Of a DNA stretch of 64,000 bases, positions 3,247 to 34,234 are shown piece by piece (within the stretch, counting starts at the first letter, position 1; each line of letters begins with the position of its first letter). The stretch spans positions 1 to 64,000 of the forward strand of contig JARKIF010000163.1 of assembly GCA_029378245.1 (NCBI GenBank). The letters are read 5' to 3'. The stretch comes from Roridomyces roridus. Lineage: Eukaryota > Basidiomycota > Agaricomycetes > Agaricales > Mycenaceae. Both the position numbers and the translations under genes were made by a program. Below the pieces are notes generated by a model. That model searched no databases and was not told where the DNA came from. It saw only the letters and a list, made by a program, of their open reading frames with translations.

Positions 3247-5064
3247 GTGGAACAGTGCCGCCATGTGGCTTCCACACCATACGATTTTCAAGCAAAAGAA
3301 TTCCGAGTACTTTACATAATCGGTCTTTTGATTTTCGACGTACCAGGTTTCCCGGTTTGAGTTTTTTAATGTGCAAAAACCGTAAACGTCACGTGGTTTC
3401 AGGTGCACTGTCCTCATTTGATTCCTGGTTCTGCATCTGTCTTTTATTTCATTTTTGTCTTCCCAGTGTCGTGCCGGACATGATAGTTATGGCTTTGTGC
3501 ATCATCGGACATCCGAAATTTTATATTTCTCATTTCCTCTACATATCATTGGCTCAGGAACTAGACGGTGCACTGTCAGCACCATCGGTATCGTCCATTG
3601 ACAATGACACCAAATTTGGCCATAGCCACGTCATGTCGCTGTCAACAAATCAAGCTCTCAACTTCAAGCCATCAGTGAATAATCAGTGAGTGTAGATTCT
3701 GGCAAACCAAATTTATTGGTGATATGAATTATGAAAGTGTGGTGGCAGAATTCAGAAATTGTTGACCTGGCACCAGGACTGGGCACTTCTACTTCTGGAT
3801 CAAGAATTGTCGCACAAGATGGAGGGCTGCTAGGTTGTGATGGCAAATAGCACGGTGTAATTGCTGCCGGGACCAGCATGCCCAGCGTTACTGGTAATCG
3901 GAGTTTTCGGACTCTAACCTCTCCTTTGGTCAACCCTTTTCTGCAAGCTGTACATGTGTGGTCTCGGGGCGATGCGTCATGTATCGTGCAAGTTGAATTG
4001 AAATTGAATGCATTATTGATATGGGCGATGGGTAACCTATGTAAACCTGTGGTGTTCCATTTACACCATATTGATCACCGCATGACATTGGGGCTGAATT
4101 GGAACTGCAGGTCCCCGCGAGTTTGTGCGGCTTGCATTCTCCGCGGTGAATGTGCATGTGCATCGTTGGTTGCTGGTTGATTCCTACCATCACACATTAG
4201 ATGCCACAGCATTTTCGTAGTACGCCGGGTACATTTGGAGAATTGACGCGGCTTCTAATTACTGCGACTCGGACGAAAATCCACATTCTTCTTTCGCCCG
4301 ATACGATCATCAACCATCAACATGGATAAGGAAGATAAGGAAGCCGGTGTGATCCGTGCGGCCATTATGGGCACCGAGTTCGACTTCCGATGGGGTCGGC
4401 GGCGGATATCTTGCAATTTCAAAGCTGTCGGTGGCCTGCGCTACATACCTCACCTCCTAAACGCAATGCCAAGCCCGTCCGGCCACGTCGGGTACCGGCA
4501 AGTTGATGCGAATCCAATGCGAATCCGTCCGGCCCGGCAGCACACAGCCACACCTGTTTTTTGAAACATGCCAAAGTAATTCGGGCTGTTTCGCCCGCCA
4601 TATACCGCTCCAATTGGGCGGCCATCTTTCTCCGCGCCGCGTGGTTGCTGAGGCCTGAGGGCTCTGCTTAGTGCCGCCTATCGCGCCGCACAGGAGCCTG
4701 AGGAGGATTCGGGTACAAGCTGGTGAGCACTACATTCGCTCTGGGCCCCCTCAGGCCAACGGGCACTTTAATCTCGTATCGAGACCTATACTTTGCCCAA
4801 TAGGAGTTTATCTCCGCTTTTTGAAATGACAAACCAAACATAAAGCGGCGGAATTGACCTAAAGCACCAAAATAGCGGTGCTGGCGAGGTATCCTTCGGC
4901 ATGAATTCGCCGTTGAGACAAGAGGTAGAGATAAATAAATAAATCCCCGCCGATTCCTTTTCTATCGCACTCACTTGCTTCGTCTTCGTTCTCTTAACCT
5001 CTTCCAGGGTATTTCTTCGTTTCCCTCTACATCTCTTATTTTCTCCCTCCCCCACCCTCGCACG
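3247..5064. other. Intergenic region without a recognised gene
   Basis: The first 55 bases are the 3' flank shared with copy B. After about 3302 the shared sequence ends abruptly. I see no credible gene between there and 5065: open frames are short and lack family features. An AT-rich run of ATAAATAAATAAAT (about 4931-4945) lies some 120 bases before the next start codon and may serve as the core promoter of the chitin deacetylase. Confidence 0.5.
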
Positions 5065-16960: not shown

Positions 16961-18175
16961 TTAACGAGGAGGCTGCTTCTCAGAGCCTAAACCGAATGAG
17001 TACGGGAGAATCTCCGAGACGAGGAAGAGTCTCGTACCAATGGTGCCGTCCGCGTTGATATCCTGGACAATGCTTCGGCGGGGAGGCTGCTTCTCAGAAC
17101 CTAAAACAACTGAGTAAGTACGGGAAAATTTTCAATAAAGAATAGTCTCGTACCAATGGTGCCGTCTGCGTTAATATCCTGAAGGACGCTTCGGCGAGGA
17201 GGCTGCTTCTCAGAACCTGCAACCAATGAGTACGGGAGAATTTCGGACGGGGGAATAGACTCCTACCAATGCTGCCGTCCGCGTTGATATCCTGGGGGAT
17301 GCTTCGGCGAGGAGGCTGCCTCTCAGAGCCTGAAACAAGGTACATGAGTACGAGAGAATTTTTCAGACAAGGCAAGGTCTCGTACCAATGGTGCCGTCCG
17401 CGTTGATATCCTGGGGGACGCTTCGGCGAGGAGGTTGCTTTTCAGAGCCTGGAACGAATGAGTATGAGAGAATTTCGGGACAAGGAAGAGTGTCCTACTA
17501 ATGCTGCCGTCCGCGTTGATATCAATGCTTCGGCGGGGAGGCTGCTTCTCAGATCCTGAACCCAATGAGCACGACAGAATCTTTCGGAAGAGGGAAGAGT
17601 CTCCTACCGATACTGACGTCCGCGTTGATATCAATGCTGCGGCGGGGAGGCTGCTTCTCAGAACCTAGAACGACTGAGTAAGTACGGGAGAATTTTCGAG
17701 ACAAGGAATAGTCTCGTACTAATGGTACCGTCCGCGTTGACATCCTGGGGGATGCTTCGGCGCGGAGGCTGCCTCTCAGAACCTGAACCGAGTGAGCACC
17801 AGAGGATTTCTCAGAGAAGCCAAGGTCTCGTACCGATGGTGACGTCTGCGTTGATATCAATGCTTCGGCGAGGAGGCTGCTTCTCAGATCCTAAACGAAG
17901 TACTTAATAAGTACGAGAGAATTTTAACCCGAGGAAGAGTTTCCTACCAATGCTGCCGTCCGCGTTGATATCCTGGGGGACGCTACGGCGAGGAGGCTGC
18001 CTCTCAGAGCCTGGTTTCGAAACGAATCAGTACGGGAGAACTTTCAAGACGAGGAAGAGAAGAGTCTCCTACCAATCGTGACGTCTGCGTTGATATCATG
18101 AGGGAGGGGAATGCTTTGGGCTAGCATCATCATGGAGGCGATGGTGAAGCAGAGGGTGGAGAGGTGGAAGCGCAT
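16961..18175 (-). CDS. Secreted repeat-peptide precursor, Kex2-type (RR) sites, one repeat per micro-exon
   Basis: The product is a predicted secreted precursor of about 225 residues read on the minus strand from ATG 18173-18175 to TAA 16961-16963. It opens with a signal peptide (MRFHLSTLCFTIASMMMLAQ), then SIPLPHDINADVTI. Nine repeats of 19-21 residues follow, of the form [G/S]SE[K/R]QPPRRS(xxQ)D[I/V]NAD[G/V][S/T]I, and a last partial GSEKQPPR. The RR in every repeat fits Kex2 cleavage; trimming would free peptides beginning S[V/I] and ending QPP. Each repeat is its own exon of 57-63 nt. Introns of about 50-62 nt, all phase 1 (after the first base of the Gly/Ser codon), have GTACGA or GTAGGA donors and a branch-like CTCAT/CTNAY close to the AG. 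No introns means no open frame. I know no named family; general class is the fungal Kex2-processed repeat proteins. Function is unknown. Confidence 0.85.
16964..18010 (-). repeat. Tandem array of ten exon-plus-intron units (about 108-125 bp)
   Basis: Units of roughly 108-125 bp carry one micro-exon and its intron. The exon core (CTGAGAAGCAGCCTCC, GATATCAACGCGGACG on the minus strand) is far more conserved than the intron, apart from the intron ends. Two exon forms exist: one with an extra two codons (VPQ, IPQ, VLQ, IVQ before DINAD) and a short one (SIDINAD). Units 2, 4 and 5 from the start are short, the rest long. The array grew by duplication of whole exon-intron modules. Confidence 0.9.
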
Positions 18176-18228: not shown

Positions 18229-18240
18229 CAGCTTTTAAAG
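18229..18240 (-). promoter_or_regulatory. TATA-like box of the peptide precursor gene
   Basis: On the minus strand CCCTTTAAAAGC lies about 60 bases before the ATG of the repeat-peptide precursor. Position and sequence fit a TATA element, which in fungi is common for highly or conditionally expressed secreted-protein genes. Confidence 0.5.
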
Positions 18241-20170: not shown

Positions 20171-21004
20171 TTAATCCAAGTTGAGGCTGGAGCGGCGGAT
20201 GAAGCGCTTGGAGACAAACCCACAGCCGGTCTTGCCAGCTTGGGTCTGCGCACCAACGCCGGAGCAGATGCCCGAGGGGCCGGCGCAGCAGCCAGAGCCG
20301 CAGTCGGCGGCGCTGAGGCATTGGCCACCGATGAACTGGCCACCAGCACCGTTGCCGACGTTCTTGACACCCGCGGGGTCGAAGGCAGGACCACCGGCGG
20401 AGGCAACGTTGTTGGCGGCAGGGGCGGGGGCGGCAGCGGGAGGAGCAGCGGCGGGGGGAGCAGCGGTGGTGAGGGATGATTGGCCAGAGACGAAGCCGCA
20501 ACCGGTCTTGCCAGCCTGAGTCTGGGCACCGACACCTGAACAGATGCCGGAAGGACCAGCACAGCAGCCAGAGCCACAGTCAGCGCCACTTAGGCACTGG
20601 CCACCGATGAACTGGCCACCAGCACCGTTGCCAACGTTCTTGACACCTGCGGGGTCAAAGGCAGGGCCACCGTTGGCAGGGGTAGTCGAGGCAGCGTTGT
20701 CGGCAGGGGCAGGGGCAGCAGCGGGGGGAGCAGCAGCAGTGAGGGAGGACGAGCCGGAGACGAAGCCGCAGCCAGTCTTGCCGGCCTGGGTCTGCGCACC
20801 GACACCCGAGCAGATACCCGAGGGACCAGCGCAGCAGCCAGAGCCGCAGTCAGCGCCACTCAGGCATTGACCGCCGATGAATTGGCCACCTGCGCCGTTA
20901 CCGACGTTCTTGACACCCGCGGGGTCAAAGGCGGGGCCACCGGCGGTCTGGGCAGCGACGTAGCTGGCGAAAGCGAGGACAGCGACAGCGGAGAAGGACT
21001 TCAT
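20171..21004 (-). CDS. Secreted cysteine-rich protein with three tandem domains (BAS2-like)
   Basis: A single-exon gene of 277 codons with a signal peptide (MKSFSAVAVLAFASYVAAQ). Three near-identical domains of about 62 residues follow, each starting GGPAFDPAGVKNVGNGAGGQ and holding six cysteines spaced C-x5-C-x3-CC-x6-C-x13-C, ending in KTGCGFVS. Ala/Pro-rich linkers separate them. The domain resembles the small secreted fungal family that includes biotrophy-associated secreted protein 2 of the rice blast fungus; that link is from memory of the motif (QFIxGQC, GCC, GCGFV). Single-domain members are usual, so three copies is unusual. The last domain ends in a short basic tail (SKRFIRRSSLNLD). 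No transmembrane or GPI signal is seen. Function, whether effector, wall protein or other, is unknown. Confidence 0.85.
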   Translation of the reverse strand: MKSFSAVAVLAFASYVAAQTAGGPAFDPAGVKNVGNGAGGQFIGGQCLSGADCGSGCCAGPSGICSGVGAQTQAGKTGCGFVSGSSSLTAAAPPAAAPAPADNAASTTPANGGPAFDPAGVKNVGNGAGGQFIGGQCLSGADCGSGCCAGPSGICSGVGAQTQAGKTGCGFVSGQSSLTTAAPPAAAPPAAAPAPAANNVASAGGPAFDPAGVKNVGNGAGGQFIGGQCLSAADCGSGCCAGPSGICSGVGAQTQAGKTGCGFVSKRFIRRSSLNLD

Positions 21005-21150
21005 GATGATGATGATTGGGATTGAAAGTGAAAGTGGTTGGAGGAGGAGTGGTAATGCAGAAAGAAAAGGCTAGAGCACCGGTGCTCGAAGAAAGAAAAA
21101 TGCGATGAGAGAAGGAGAGGAGAAGCCTGAGGATGGAAGACGGGACGCAT

Positions 21151-29918: not shown

Positions 29919-32900
29919 ATGTCGATACCAATGACTGAAATGCAGACAGGGACACATTTCCATATCCATGGTAAGTCAACATGGCCCAGTCTTGCGACAA
30001 GGGTCAGTACTGACCTGGCTTTCAGGTGGCACTGGTGGTCCTGGTGGGGCAGGCAACCAACATGGGGGAGACGGAGGTTCTGGTGAAGGGGGAGCCCTCT
30101 TTTATGGAAGTCAGATCACCAACTTGAAGTAAATCCCTAGTGCCTCTACAGACCCAGATCTGACAGTACACAGTGTTTATTCACATAGCCAAGAGCCAAG
30201 ACACCAAGGTCAAATTGAACTCATCAGTACGTACCAAATAAATATCTGAGGCCCACTAAGCAGATATCACAGTGCAAGAACAATGCCACACTGCTCTGGC
30301 ACTTGTCAGATGTCCTCCAGCCTCTCAGATCTTCCAGGGCCGACAGGACATTCTTGACAAAATGCAACAGTACTTTTCCCAGGAACCCAAGAAGAGAAGG
30401 ATTTTTGTCCTCCATGGGCTTGGTGGCACTGGGAAGACTCAGGTGGCTTTGAAATTTCTTGAGTCAATTCATGAGTATGCAATCCTTGATCATTGTCACG
30501 GAAAACACTGCTTCTGATTAACAACTTTTCCAGGTTTACAAAGCGGTTCTTTGTGAATGCCAGCTCTCCTGAGGCTCTCAAAACATCCTTTATGAACATA
30601 GCAATTTCCCAGGGCTTTGGAAAAACACCAGAAGCTGGCTTTCAGTGGCTTATTTCTGAAAACAAAGAGTGGACTCTCCTCTTTGACAATGCAGATGATC
30701 CAAAACTGAAGCTATCACCATTCTTCCCCCAATGTACCCATGGAAATATTATCATCACTTCCCGAAACCCACAACTTGCTGCTTATGGGCCTGCTTCTCA
30801 CTCACAGGTGGGAGACTTGGACAAAGAAAATGCAGCTCTTCTTCTTCTTGCAAGAGCGGTGAAGGAGCACACAGATGAGAACCATACATTAGCCATGGGC
30901 ATTGTACAGGTAGGTTCCAAGTTCTTCAAACAATGATCTCATGCTTAATCAAGATGCACAGGAGCTCTCGTGCTTGCCTCTTGCAATTGTCCAGGCTGGG
31001 GCTTATATTGCCAAGTTCAAATGTCTCCTGGATTATCTGGATATCTACAGGCAGAACAGGGAAGAGTTACTTCGACAGCACCCTGATCAAACTCTTGATG
31101 ACTATGAATGGACTGTCTATACAACCTGGCAGATTAGCTTTGAGGAACTCAGCCCGGTAGCTGCCCAGTTTTTACAGTTCTGTGCTGTATTGCACCACAG
31201 CAATATTCCCCAGTCAATATTTGCCAATGCCACACAGTGGATATTGAACAATGAGGGGAATGAAACTGAGTCAATGGGGAAAGCCAGGAAATTTCTCCAA
31301 AACTTTGTCTCAGGTTCAGGAACTTGGTCAAAACAATATTTCAGGAATATTGTGGCGGAGATTGAAGAATATTCACTGATTCAGAGCCAGGAAGCCAGTG
31401 GTACGCTAGATATGCATCCACTTGTGCATCTGTGGTGCTCAAGCACCCTACCTGATGAGGGAACAACACGGGCATGCATGGTAAATGTGGTGGGGATGGC
31501 AATAGATCTTCGCCCTGATGCATATTTGGAGAGGATCAGGATGATGGCTCATGTCAACATGCTTGTCCCAGATTTCACTGTGGTAAATGCTCAGTTCTGG
31601 ACGCGATATGCATCGATGTATTATGATGGAGGTAAATTTGAGCAAGCAAAGGGTTTGCGTGAACTGGATCTGCAGAGACAACGGGAGCTGCTTGGAAAGC
31701 ACCACCCTGCCACCCTGAGGGCCATGGCCAACCTTGCAAGCACGTACGGGCAACTGGGTCGGTACAGAGAGGCAGAGCCCCTTGAAATTTCTGTCCTCAA
31801 AGAGTGCCAGAAACTCCTTGGCGATGGCCATCCTGACACCCTGAAAGCCATGGCCAACCTTGCAGTCACATACGGGCAACTGGGCCGGCACAGAGAGGCA
31901 GAGCCCCTTGAAATTTCTGTCCTCAAAGAGCGTCAGAAACTCCTTGGTGATGGCCACCCTGACACCCTGTTAGCCATGGCCAACCTTGCAAGCACGTACG
32001 GGCAACTGGGTCGGTACAGAGAGGCAGAGCCCCTCAAAACTTCTGTCCTCAAAGAGCGTCAGAAACTCCTTGGTGATGACCATCCTGACACCCTGAGAGC
32101 CATGGCCAACCTTGCAAGCACGTATGGGCAACTGGGTCGGTACAGAGAGGCAGAGCCCCTCAAAACTTCTGTCCTCAAAGAGCGTCAGAAACTCCTTGGC
32201 GATGGCCATCCTGACACCCTGAGAGCCATGGCCAACCTTGCAGTCACATACGGGCAACTGGGCCGGCACAGAGAGGCAGAGCCCCTTGAACTTTCTGTCC
32301 TCAAAGAGCGTCAGGAACTCCTCGGTGATGGCCATCCTGACACCCTGTTAGCCATGTCCAACCTTGCAAGCACATACGGGCAACTGGGTCGGTACAGAGA
32401 TGCGGAGCCCCTTGAAATTTCTGTCCTCAAAGAGTGCCAGAAACTCCTTGGTGATGACCATCCTGACACCCTGAGAGCCATGGCCAACCTTGCAAGCACG
32501 TATGGGCAACTGGGTCGGTACAGAGAGGCAGAGCCCCTCAAAACTTCTGTCCTCAAAGAGCGTCAGAAACTCCTTGGCGATGGCCATCCTGACACCCTGA
32601 GAGCCATGGCCAACCTTGCAGTCACATACGGGCAACTGGGCCGGCACAGAGAGGCAGAGCCCCTTGAACTTTCTGTCCTCAAAGAGCGTCAGGAACTCCT
32701 CGGTGATGGCCATCCTGACACCCTGTTAGCCATGGCCAACCTTGCAAGCACGTACGGGCAACTGGGTCGGTACAGAGAGGCAGAGCCCCTCCAACTTTCT
32801 GTCCTCAAAGAGCGTCAGAAACTCCTTGGCGATGGCCATCCTGACACCCTGAGAGCCATGGCCAACCTTGCAAGCACGTACGGGCAACTGGGTCGGTACA

Positions 32901-34234
32901 GAGAGGCAGAGCCCCTCAAAACTTCTGTCCTCAAAGAGTGTCAGAAACTCCTTGGCGATGGCCATCCTGACACCCTGAGAGCCATGGCCAACCTTGCAGT
33001 CACATACGGGCAACTGGGCCGGCACAGAGAGGCAGAGCCCCTTGAAATTTCTGTCCTCAAAGAGCGTCAGGAACTCCTTGGTGATGGCCATCCTGACACC
33101 CTGTTAGCCATGGCCAACCTTGCAAGCACGTACAGGCAACTGGGTCGGTACAGAGAGGCAGAGCCCCTTGAAATTTCTGTCCTCAAAGAGCGTCAGGAAC
33201 TCCTTGGTGATGGCCATCCTGACACCCTGTTAGCCATGGCCAACCTTGCAAGCACGTACAGGCAACTGGGTCGGTACAGAGAGGCAGAGCCCCTTGAAAT
33301 TTCTGTCCTCACAGAGCGTCAGAAACTCCTTGGTGATGGTCATCCTGACACGCTGTCAGCCATGGCCAACCTTGCAGTCACATACGGGCAACTGGGCCGG
33401 CACAGAGAGGCAGAGCCCCTCCAACTTTCTGTCCTCAAAGAGCGTCAGAAACTCCTTGGCGATGGCCATCCTGACACCCTGAGAGCCATGGCCAACCTTG
33501 CAAGCACGTATGGGCAACTGGGTCGGTACAGAGAGGCAGAGCCCCTCCAACTTTCTGTCCTCAAAGAGCGTCAGAAACTCCTTGGCGATGGCCATCCTGA
33601 CACCCTGAGAGCCATGGCCAACCTTGCAAGCACGTATGGGCAACTGGGTCGGTACAGAGAGGCAGAGCCCCTCAAAACTTCTGTCCTCAAAGAGCGTCAG
33701 AAACTCCTTGGCGATGGCCATCCTGACACCCTGAGAGCCATGGCCAACCTTGCAGTCACATACGGGCAACTGGGCCGGCACAGAGAGGCAGAGCCCCTTG
33801 AACTTTCTGTCCTCAAAGAGCGTCAGGAACTCCTCGGTGATGGCCATCCTGACACCCTGTTAGCCATGTCCAACCTTGCAAGCACATACGGGCAACTGGG
33901 TCGGTACAGAGATGCGGAGCCCCTTGAAATTTCTGTCCTCAAAGAGTGCCAGAAACTCCTTGGTGATGACCATCCTGACACCCTGAGAGCCATGGCCAAT
34001 CTTGCCATGACACTTTATAGCACCGGCCGGCCCCAAAAAGCAGAAAATCTTCAGCTCGAAGTTGTTGCCAAATGCAGGGATGTCCTAGGCACAGACCATC
34101 CAGACACCCTCAATGCTACCAAAGACTTGAGGGCTACACAACATGCTTTGGCTAAGGCCAAGGATTCAGAAAAACCTGCCAACAGGATTTCCAAACTGCT
34201 TTCCAGAGTCAAATTCCCCTCCTCCAAGAAATAG
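29919..34234 (+). CDS. NB-ARC/TPR NLR-like protein, copy B (intact, highly repetitive)
   Basis: A STAND-class switch protein, the fungal counterpart of NLR immune receptors. Six exons (29919-29970, 30026-30128, 30174-30226, 30264-30474, 30534-30909, 30962-34234) total 4068 nt, giving 1355 residues with every junction in phase. The N-terminus is glycine-rich (HFHIHGGTGGPGGAGNQHGG and further GGxGG). The NB-ARC has Walker A GLGGTGKTQ, Walker B WTLLFDNADDP, RNBS-B GNIIITSRNP and GLPL LPLAIVQAGAY. A winged-helix region follows, then 18 almost identical 42-residue TPRs (NLASTYGQLGRYREAEPL and so on) and one degenerate unit, ending in a basic tail (KISKLLSRVKF-like). TPRs of this kinesin-light-chain type bind ligands in related receptors. 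A complete open frame suggests function; the ligand is unknown. Copy A at 1-3246 is its disrupted relative. Confidence 0.92.
31720..33990 (+). repeat. 18 near-identical 126-bp TPR units with higher-order repeats
   Basis: Each unit is 126 bp (42 codons). Differences are confined to a few codons: Tyr/His after GR, the pair after EAEPL (EI, EL, KT or QL), Cys/Arg before QKLL, Lys/Glu after RQ, Asp/Gly after LLGD, and the residue after DTL (R, L, S or K). Units 4-6 and 16-18 have the same residue pattern at these sites, evidence of recent block duplication by unequal exchange or conversion. Confidence 0.93.

Follow-up and report, generated by a model that had tools for sequence, protein, structure and literature searches.

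A probable KEX2-processed repeat protein gene of Roridomyces roridus with one small exon per repeat

What does a gene make when nearly the same short peptide is encoded again and again, each time on an exon of its own? The question is raised by a locus in the window analyzed here, a stretch of 64,000 nucleotides from Roridomyces roridus, a member of the Mycenaceae in the Agaricales, lying on contig C72 (69 kb), for which an initial annotation had proposed a secreted peptide precursor. We think it very probable that the gene encodes a KEX2-processed repeat protein (KEP) and belongs to a small, partly clustered family. What we observe is the sequence itself, a coherent splice pattern, a frame constraint, and paralogs, two of which have public models spliced likewise.

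Gene structure and predicted product

The gene lies on the minus strand, from an ATG at 18175 down to 16961, where the final exon closes with TAA; it has 11 exons and ten GT-AG introns of 50 to 62 nt, all in phase 1. Its features are as follows.

18231..18240, minus: TATA-like CTTTAAAAGC, about 60 nt 5′ of the ATG, by eye
16961..18175, minus: whole coding span, with ten phase-1 GT-AG introns
18073..18175, minus: exon 1, 103 nt, signal peptide MRFHLSTLCFTIASMMMLAQS and first core IPLPHDINADVTI; cleavage after AQS judged by eye
18113..18175, minus: predicted signal peptide, residues 1 to 21, a hydrophobic stretch by Kyte-Doolittle
17948..18010, minus: exon 2, 63 nt, GSERQPPRRSVPQDINADGSI
17834..17890, minus: exon 3, 57 nt, GSEKQPPRRSIDINADVTI
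17720..17782, minus: exon 4, 63 nt, GSERQPPRRSIPQDVNADGTI
17608..17664, minus: exon 5, 57 nt, SSEKQPPRRSIDINADVSI; the A of the preceding exon completes the first codon
17499..17555, minus: exon 6, 57 nt, GSEKQPPRRSIDINADGSI; the likely allele on contig C157 differs here and has one repeat more
17386..17448, minus: exon 7, 63 nt, SSEKQPPRRSVPQDINADGTI
17267..17329, minus: exon 8, 63 nt, GSERQPPRRSIPQDINADGSI
17154..17216, minus: exon 9, 63 nt, GSEKQPPRRSVLQDINADGTI
17038..17100, minus: exon 10, 63 nt, GSEKQPPRRSIVQDINADGTI
16961..16986, minus: exon 11, terminal, GSEKQPPR and then TAA

The nine internal exons measure, in order, 63, 57, 63, 57, 57, 63, 63, 63, and 63 nt, and the introns 62, 57, 51, 55, 52, 50, 56, 50, 53, and 51 nt. 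The initial annotation had placed the gene at the same coordinates, with each repeat on its own exon of 57 to 63 nt and introns in phase 1, and the splice pattern bears this out. It had counted nine repeats and a partial one; nine is indeed the number of internal exons, whereas the cores number ten, the first of them in exon 1. Exons of 57 to 63 nt are small, yet larger than the strictest micro-exon sizes. If the introns are read through, an in-frame stop is encountered within 5 of the 10. A hairpin between donor and branch point, considered by eye for the ten introns, was dropped because its other arm does not match the donor variants.

In the 225-residue product the D[IV]NAD core occurs ten times and Arg-Arg nine times; the sequence reads in order MRFHLSTLCFTIASMMMLAQS, IPLPHDINADVTI, nine units of the form [GS]SE[KR]QPPRRS[IV](xQ)D[IV]NAD[GV][ST]I, and GSEKQPPR. 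An Arg-Arg site in each repeat, as originally claimed, is present in 9/9 internal exons. The description of the precursor as secreted also agrees with what we see, in that the putative signal peptide has an 11-residue Kyte-Doolittle mean of up to 2.13 and, among family members, seven typed exon-1 sequences encode a similar N-terminus. Upstream of the gene copies called A2, B1, B2, and C below, the string CTTTAAAAGC is again found (by eye).

Cleavage at all nine Arg-Arg sites, followed by removal of the basic ends, would yield ten distinct predicted peptides of 17 to 20 residues, each with a net charge of -2 and without Cys, Tyr, Trp, or Phe. It is between ..NADxxI and GSE.. that the introns interrupt the predicted peptide; none falls at an Arg-Arg site. 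Each peptide is thus made of parts of two adjacent exons, and the exon is not the peptide; one exon per repeat stands, while any equation of exon with peptide does not. That skipping any internal exon preserves the frame follows by arithmetic from exon lengths and phases, as had been argued. Given where the introns fall, such a skip would delete one repeat and join the halves of two others.

Paralogs and constraint on the coding sequence

The genome contains at least six multi-repeat loci of one design; family counts are minimum figures, as only the best candidates are scored in a search of the genome.

A: the window gene (A1) on C72, and its likely allele (A2) at C157:619183-617866
B1: C57:1226741-1228171, 12 cores
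B2: C57:1412393-1413272, 7 cores
C: C460:132288 downwards, 7 cores; second copy on C357
D: C57 near 1.5015-1.5021 Mb and C349:10992-10454, 4 cores
F: C57 near 1.4465 Mb and C280, minus strand, seven exons GSEGPLPR[DH]NIDADA[VD]I

The copy on C157 is a likely allele of the window gene, judged by the DNA around it, of which 5.1 kb align at 95% and 1.4 kb at 97%; a stretch of 1.8 kb that takes in the gene and its upstream region is 91% alike. Among 11 paired exons, 9 are without substitution and 8 are identical, and the signal peptides differ by 9 nt in frame. The likely allele has 11 cores to the 10 of the window gene, with Arg-Arg at 10/10 internal exons and one repeat reading DINED. The core had been described as invariant, which is correct for the window gene and fails for the family, where DINED, DISED, DITED, DTNAD, and NIDAD also occur.

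Repeat number, too, varies within this genome, between the likely A alleles (10 versus 11 cores) and between the B copies (12 versus 7). B1 and B2 share two stretches, 97% and 91% alike, outside which the fetched loci do not align.

The last exon of paralog C is split by an insertion of about 20 kb (L011 ~3356-3400 and L029 ~2837-2860; C460:131.4 kb and 111.3 kb), which carries TATGGAGGCC as inverted ends, with what seems to be a 6-base target duplication, and, judged from its ends, looks like a DNA transposon. Its near-side boundary is also present in the C357 copy (L013, at a contig end), which carries many small indels and is probably low-quality assembly sequence. On C57, the signal exon of paralog D is frame-disrupted (L025 ~2016-2120, C57 near 1501515); on C349 it is intact.

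Paralog F has a single Arg at its repeat junctions and one exon with a GTTAGT donor. One B junction and one B2 junction are also without Arg-Arg, and with these exceptions the dibasic site cannot count as general in the family. Relatives with a single core were found at C57 near 1.4453 Mb, C465:5815/C466:8157, C349:8014/C57:1504445, C349:1599, and C465:2125/C466:6268, some of them spliced by eye and others known as matches alone. The C-terminus is PPR or PPRR in those that were read and also in A, B, and D, and LPR in F. For the relative at L031 5815-6080, the second intron would require a GC donor.

Is the sequence constrained as a coding sequence? Across six copies, the length of the internal exons is divisible by three in 45/45 cases (9+10+11+6+6+3), the exons having been set by splice-like motifs with no frame rule. 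The introns of the same copies (n=51) populate all three length classes (21, 10, and 20), in chained models whose exons did carry a frame rule. Over the first and last eight codons of each of the nine window exons, third-position columns are variable in 9/16 cases, versus 4/32 for first and second positions (1/16 and 3/16, respectively; Fisher p 0.004). Mean pairwise differences at codon positions 1/2/3 are 1.4/9.0/20.3% among the window repeats; for A1, B1, C, and D compared with one another they are 7.5/17.6/26.6%. Correspondingly, dN/dS is 0.13 among the window repeats and 0.28 between the four paralogs (0.18 to 0.35 by gene pair), rising to 2.29 between paralogs when the frame is shifted by one base. 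Inside other copies it is 0.17 for A2, 0.18 for B1, 0.43 for C, and 0 for D (three pairs). These dN/dS and codon-position figures again use the first and last eight codons per exon, and the pairs share sequences and are not independent. Selection on the peptide, as inferred earlier, accords with the low ratio and the excess of third-position variation; the weaker constraint on the repeats of gene C counts against the KEP reading.

The earlier contrast of conserved exons with variable introns is borne out in part. Within the window gene, mismatch is 12% in exons (gaps 5%) and 20% in intron bodies (gaps 15%), while synonymous sites mismatch at 29%, so that the introns are not more variable than silent sites. 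The contrast is real but modest.

Predicted processing and competing readings

By the descriptions available in part from three papers (PMC7329392, PMC6339444, and PMC9769878), KEPs share with the window gene a signal peptide, tandem short peptides, and dibasic KEX2 sites. The window product has a predicted N-terminal signal peptide (from hydropathy and similar N-termini in relatives), ten tandem similar cores, and dibasic sites between the repeats, which paralog F lacks. Repeats of 9 to 24 residues are given as the commonest KEP class in Dikarya in the available part of PMC6339444. The window gene differs from the KEPs in those descriptions in having one exon per repeat and an intron within the peptide.

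We infer that the transcript is spliced at all ten introns and that the signal peptide would send the precursor into the secretory pathway. A kexin would then cut after each Arg-Arg and a KEX1-type carboxypeptidase would take off the basic residues, in keeping with the pathway of secretion, KEX2 cleavage at dibasic sites, and basic-residue trimming outlined in the part of PMC9769878 available. P_proprotein (kexin-type) matches occur at two places in the genome, a domain that alone is no proof of KEX2. The outcome would be ten acidic peptides of 17 to 20 residues, such as SIDINADVTIGSERQPP, secreted as a near-redundant mixture; linear peptides are to be expected. They may act as signals or on neighboring organisms. 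According to the same partial source, KEP peptides have been seen by mass spectrometry in other agaricomycetes, and kep knockouts of Coprinopsis cinerea had no detectable phenotype, the authors suggesting a role toward the biotic environment (PMC9769878). As to origin, an ancestor with a single released peptide is suggested by the single-core relatives, and the array may have grown as a unit of one exon and one intron was duplicated. Copies can be gained or lost with the frame intact, since all internal exons are 1-1 symmetric.

Could the cores be modified further? In the available part of PMC7329392, dikaritin clusters are marked by UstYa genes, and DUF3328/UstYa genes are enriched beside KEP genes. 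A dikaritin-like RiPP precursor, compatible with a KEP, would have its cores modified or cyclized by UstYa-type oxidases, which paralog D would have in cis and the window gene would depend on in trans. Known dikaritin precursors (ustiloxin, asperipin-2a, and phomopsin) resemble the family in being KEP-like, and paralog D on C57 sits between two UstYa matches, 3.5 and 4.8 kb away:

C57:1497777-1498025: UstYa (PF11807), flanking paralog D, from the genome profile search
C57:1506860-1507105: UstYa (PF11807), flanking paralog D, from the genome profile search

With the cut-off at 25 bits, these two open frames reach 49 and 51, their matches covering the second half of the profile; D on C349 has the same two-sided arrangement. 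A rough, after-the-fact estimate puts UstYa on both sides by chance at 1.5e-6 per locus and 1.5e-5 over ten loci, taking places as uniformly spread and counting both haplotypes as one genome. Just past one UstYa lie two neighboring alpha/beta-hydrolase open frames (L035 4413-5243 and 6044-6991, minus; C57:1494412-1496990), and a RiPP cluster at C57:1494-1507 kb is possible. The window gene itself fits less well. No UstYa lies on C72 or C157 among the 28 matches listed (E up to 0.001; 21 separate places), even with the likely allele more than 200 kb from both ends of C157; a UstYa gene nearby was found for D only. The window cores are without Cys, and 0/10 carry the Tyr, Trp, or Phe that an aromatic core as in ustiloxin would have; the D cores lack these residues likewise. 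UstYa-linked KEPs without Tyr do exist, according to the available part of PMC7329392. On balance, a dikaritin-like precursor is possible, if rather doubtful. We regard as unlikely the more specific proposal of a new, Mycenaceae-restricted RiPP class, in which exon-duplicated KEP precursors would give non-aromatic peptides oxidized by the UstYa proteins of the C57 cluster, with undescribed chemistry, and the window array would be a dispersed, repeat-number-variable supplier in trans.

The remaining readings dispense with released peptides or with their coding altogether, or give the cores another use. The single-Arg junctions of paralog F would suit a repeat protein that works uncut or as large fragments, in the cell wall for instance, its Arg-Arg sites incidental or only partly used; Rep1 of Ustilago, a repeat protein cut by KEX2, influences the properties of the hyphal wall and surface, as far as given in PMC6339444 and PMC7329392. 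With Arg-Arg at 9/9 internal exons of the window gene and 10/10 of its likely allele, we find this improbable. The core D-x-N-x-D-G-x-I copies positions 1 to 8 of the EF-hand/dockerin calcium loop, which would make the products metal-binding peptides, and there is a weak Dockerin_1 match (E 0.008) and one EF-hand-type protein (E 0.07). The 51 cores in six A-D copies all have Asp, Asn, Ser, or Thr at positions 1, 3, and 5; the search expression itself requires such residues, but the count is equal to the number of units. Many repeats have Val, Ala, or Thr, not Gly, at loop position 6, and the acidic residue is at 11, not 12. The Dockerin_1 score is 16.7 bits against a Pfam cut-off of 22.9, and the EF-hand pattern PS00018 has 0 matches in six proteins. 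Membership of the window cores in the EF-hand/dockerin group was rejected on these last two grounds, and metal binding seems to us very improbable. Finally, the DNA-level unit recurs every 109 to 125 bp, introns included, as a noncoding minisatellite that is gene-like by accident would do. The excess of third-position variation, dN/dS of 0.13 to 0.28, exon lengths divisible by three where intron lengths are not, similar signal-peptide exons, and public gene models of relatives leave such an accident next to no probability.

Two known gene designs bear comparison with the KEP reading. Ascomycete alpha-factor pheromone precursors also have repeats with KEX2 sites, and copies C and D show, by eye, XP/XA dipeptides after some dibasic sites that resemble STE13 sites. 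The window gene has neither aromatic residues nor a GQ/PG dipeptide, unlike most Leotiomycete pheromones as the available part of PMC10569646 describes them; it has no Trp, and the four Pfam families listed for it, with E up to 10, include none of pheromones. Micro-exon genes of Schistosoma, so far as PMC10526429 was available, likewise have secreted products and short exons mostly divisible by three, and are likewise difficult for automatic annotation; the reference list there contains a title starting ‘Tandemly Repeated Exons Encode’. They differ in belonging to an unrelated lineage and having long introns, and KEX2-type repeats are not mentioned in that part of the text, so the likeness is an analogy of gene design only.

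Annotation, novelty, and neighboring sequence

Public annotation covers little of this family. We searched the protein collection over lengths of 124-394 aa and 88-280 aa, scoring the best 8000 candidates by shared words, and retrieved three R. roridus proteins and the EF-hand-type protein; the single-core profile gave 5 candidates. A profile of family members matched P0002 (hypothetical protein FB45DRAFT_870712), which uses the repeated small exons of paralog D and reads the signal region in another frame. A profile of single-core members matched P0003 (FB45DRAFT_1061961) and P0004 (FB45DRAFT_1069005). The first of these is identical, at 51/51 residues, to a single-core protein spliced by eye here; the second, from the C466 copy, agrees at its start and then reads through the proposed GC-donor intron, a point against the reading of the family given here. 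The 8000 candidates scored included no annotated product of the window gene, and of the six loci D alone was matched, with no match for the products of A, B1, B2, C, or F. Outside R. roridus, no relative appeared among the candidates scored at E up to 1 except the EF-hand-type protein (E 0.07), so that conservation is shown within one genome only.

Is the gene undescribed, then, as was first suggested? The sequence family may be called so; the class may not, as KEX2-processed repeat proteins have already been surveyed (PMC7329392, PMC9769878, and PMC6339444, each available in part). The window product had no family match over its cut-off in the libraries searched. In the literature listings we met no fungal gene with a separate exon for each KEX2 repeat, and of 1,960 papers matched for DINAD inside words, the 20 listed bear unrelated titles. 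In PMC7329392, PMC6339444, and PMC9769878, the word ‘exon’ occurs 0 times, and ‘intron’ 0 times in the first two and once in the third. The searches made turned up neither the sequence family nor its one-exon-per-repeat organization elsewhere; the class is known.

It is worth noting that the largest KEP survey began from annotated proteins (14,491,621 of them, according to the part of PMC7329392 available). As no such protein turned up for A, B, C, and F in the length ranges searched, genes of this kind may be undercounted; that five of six multi-repeat loci gave no match among the candidates scored from the protein collection suggests, and does not prove, the same for small-exon precursors. 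The exon-phase signature offers a simple means to look for them. A repeat number that differs between likely alleles provides a test case for the evolution of peptide dose and mixture, and with the UstYa-flanked paralog D one can test for what may be a new basidiomycete RiPP.

The neighbors of the window gene look ordinary: in a scan of 9 of the 156 listed open frames, 5 were without match, and the others gave DUF7025, a PINIT domain, a TPR-repeat protein, and an F-box-like match below cut-off. A 299-aa open frame at 20174-21070, minus strand, without a Pfam match, lies over an internal DNA repeat (offset about 276 bp, 83% alike) that we infer from cross-alignment with locus L009. At 30914-34231 on the plus strand is a 1106-aa open frame in which DUF7779 scores below its cut-off and which consists mostly of TPR_10 and TPR_12 repeats, with 19 stretches of each.
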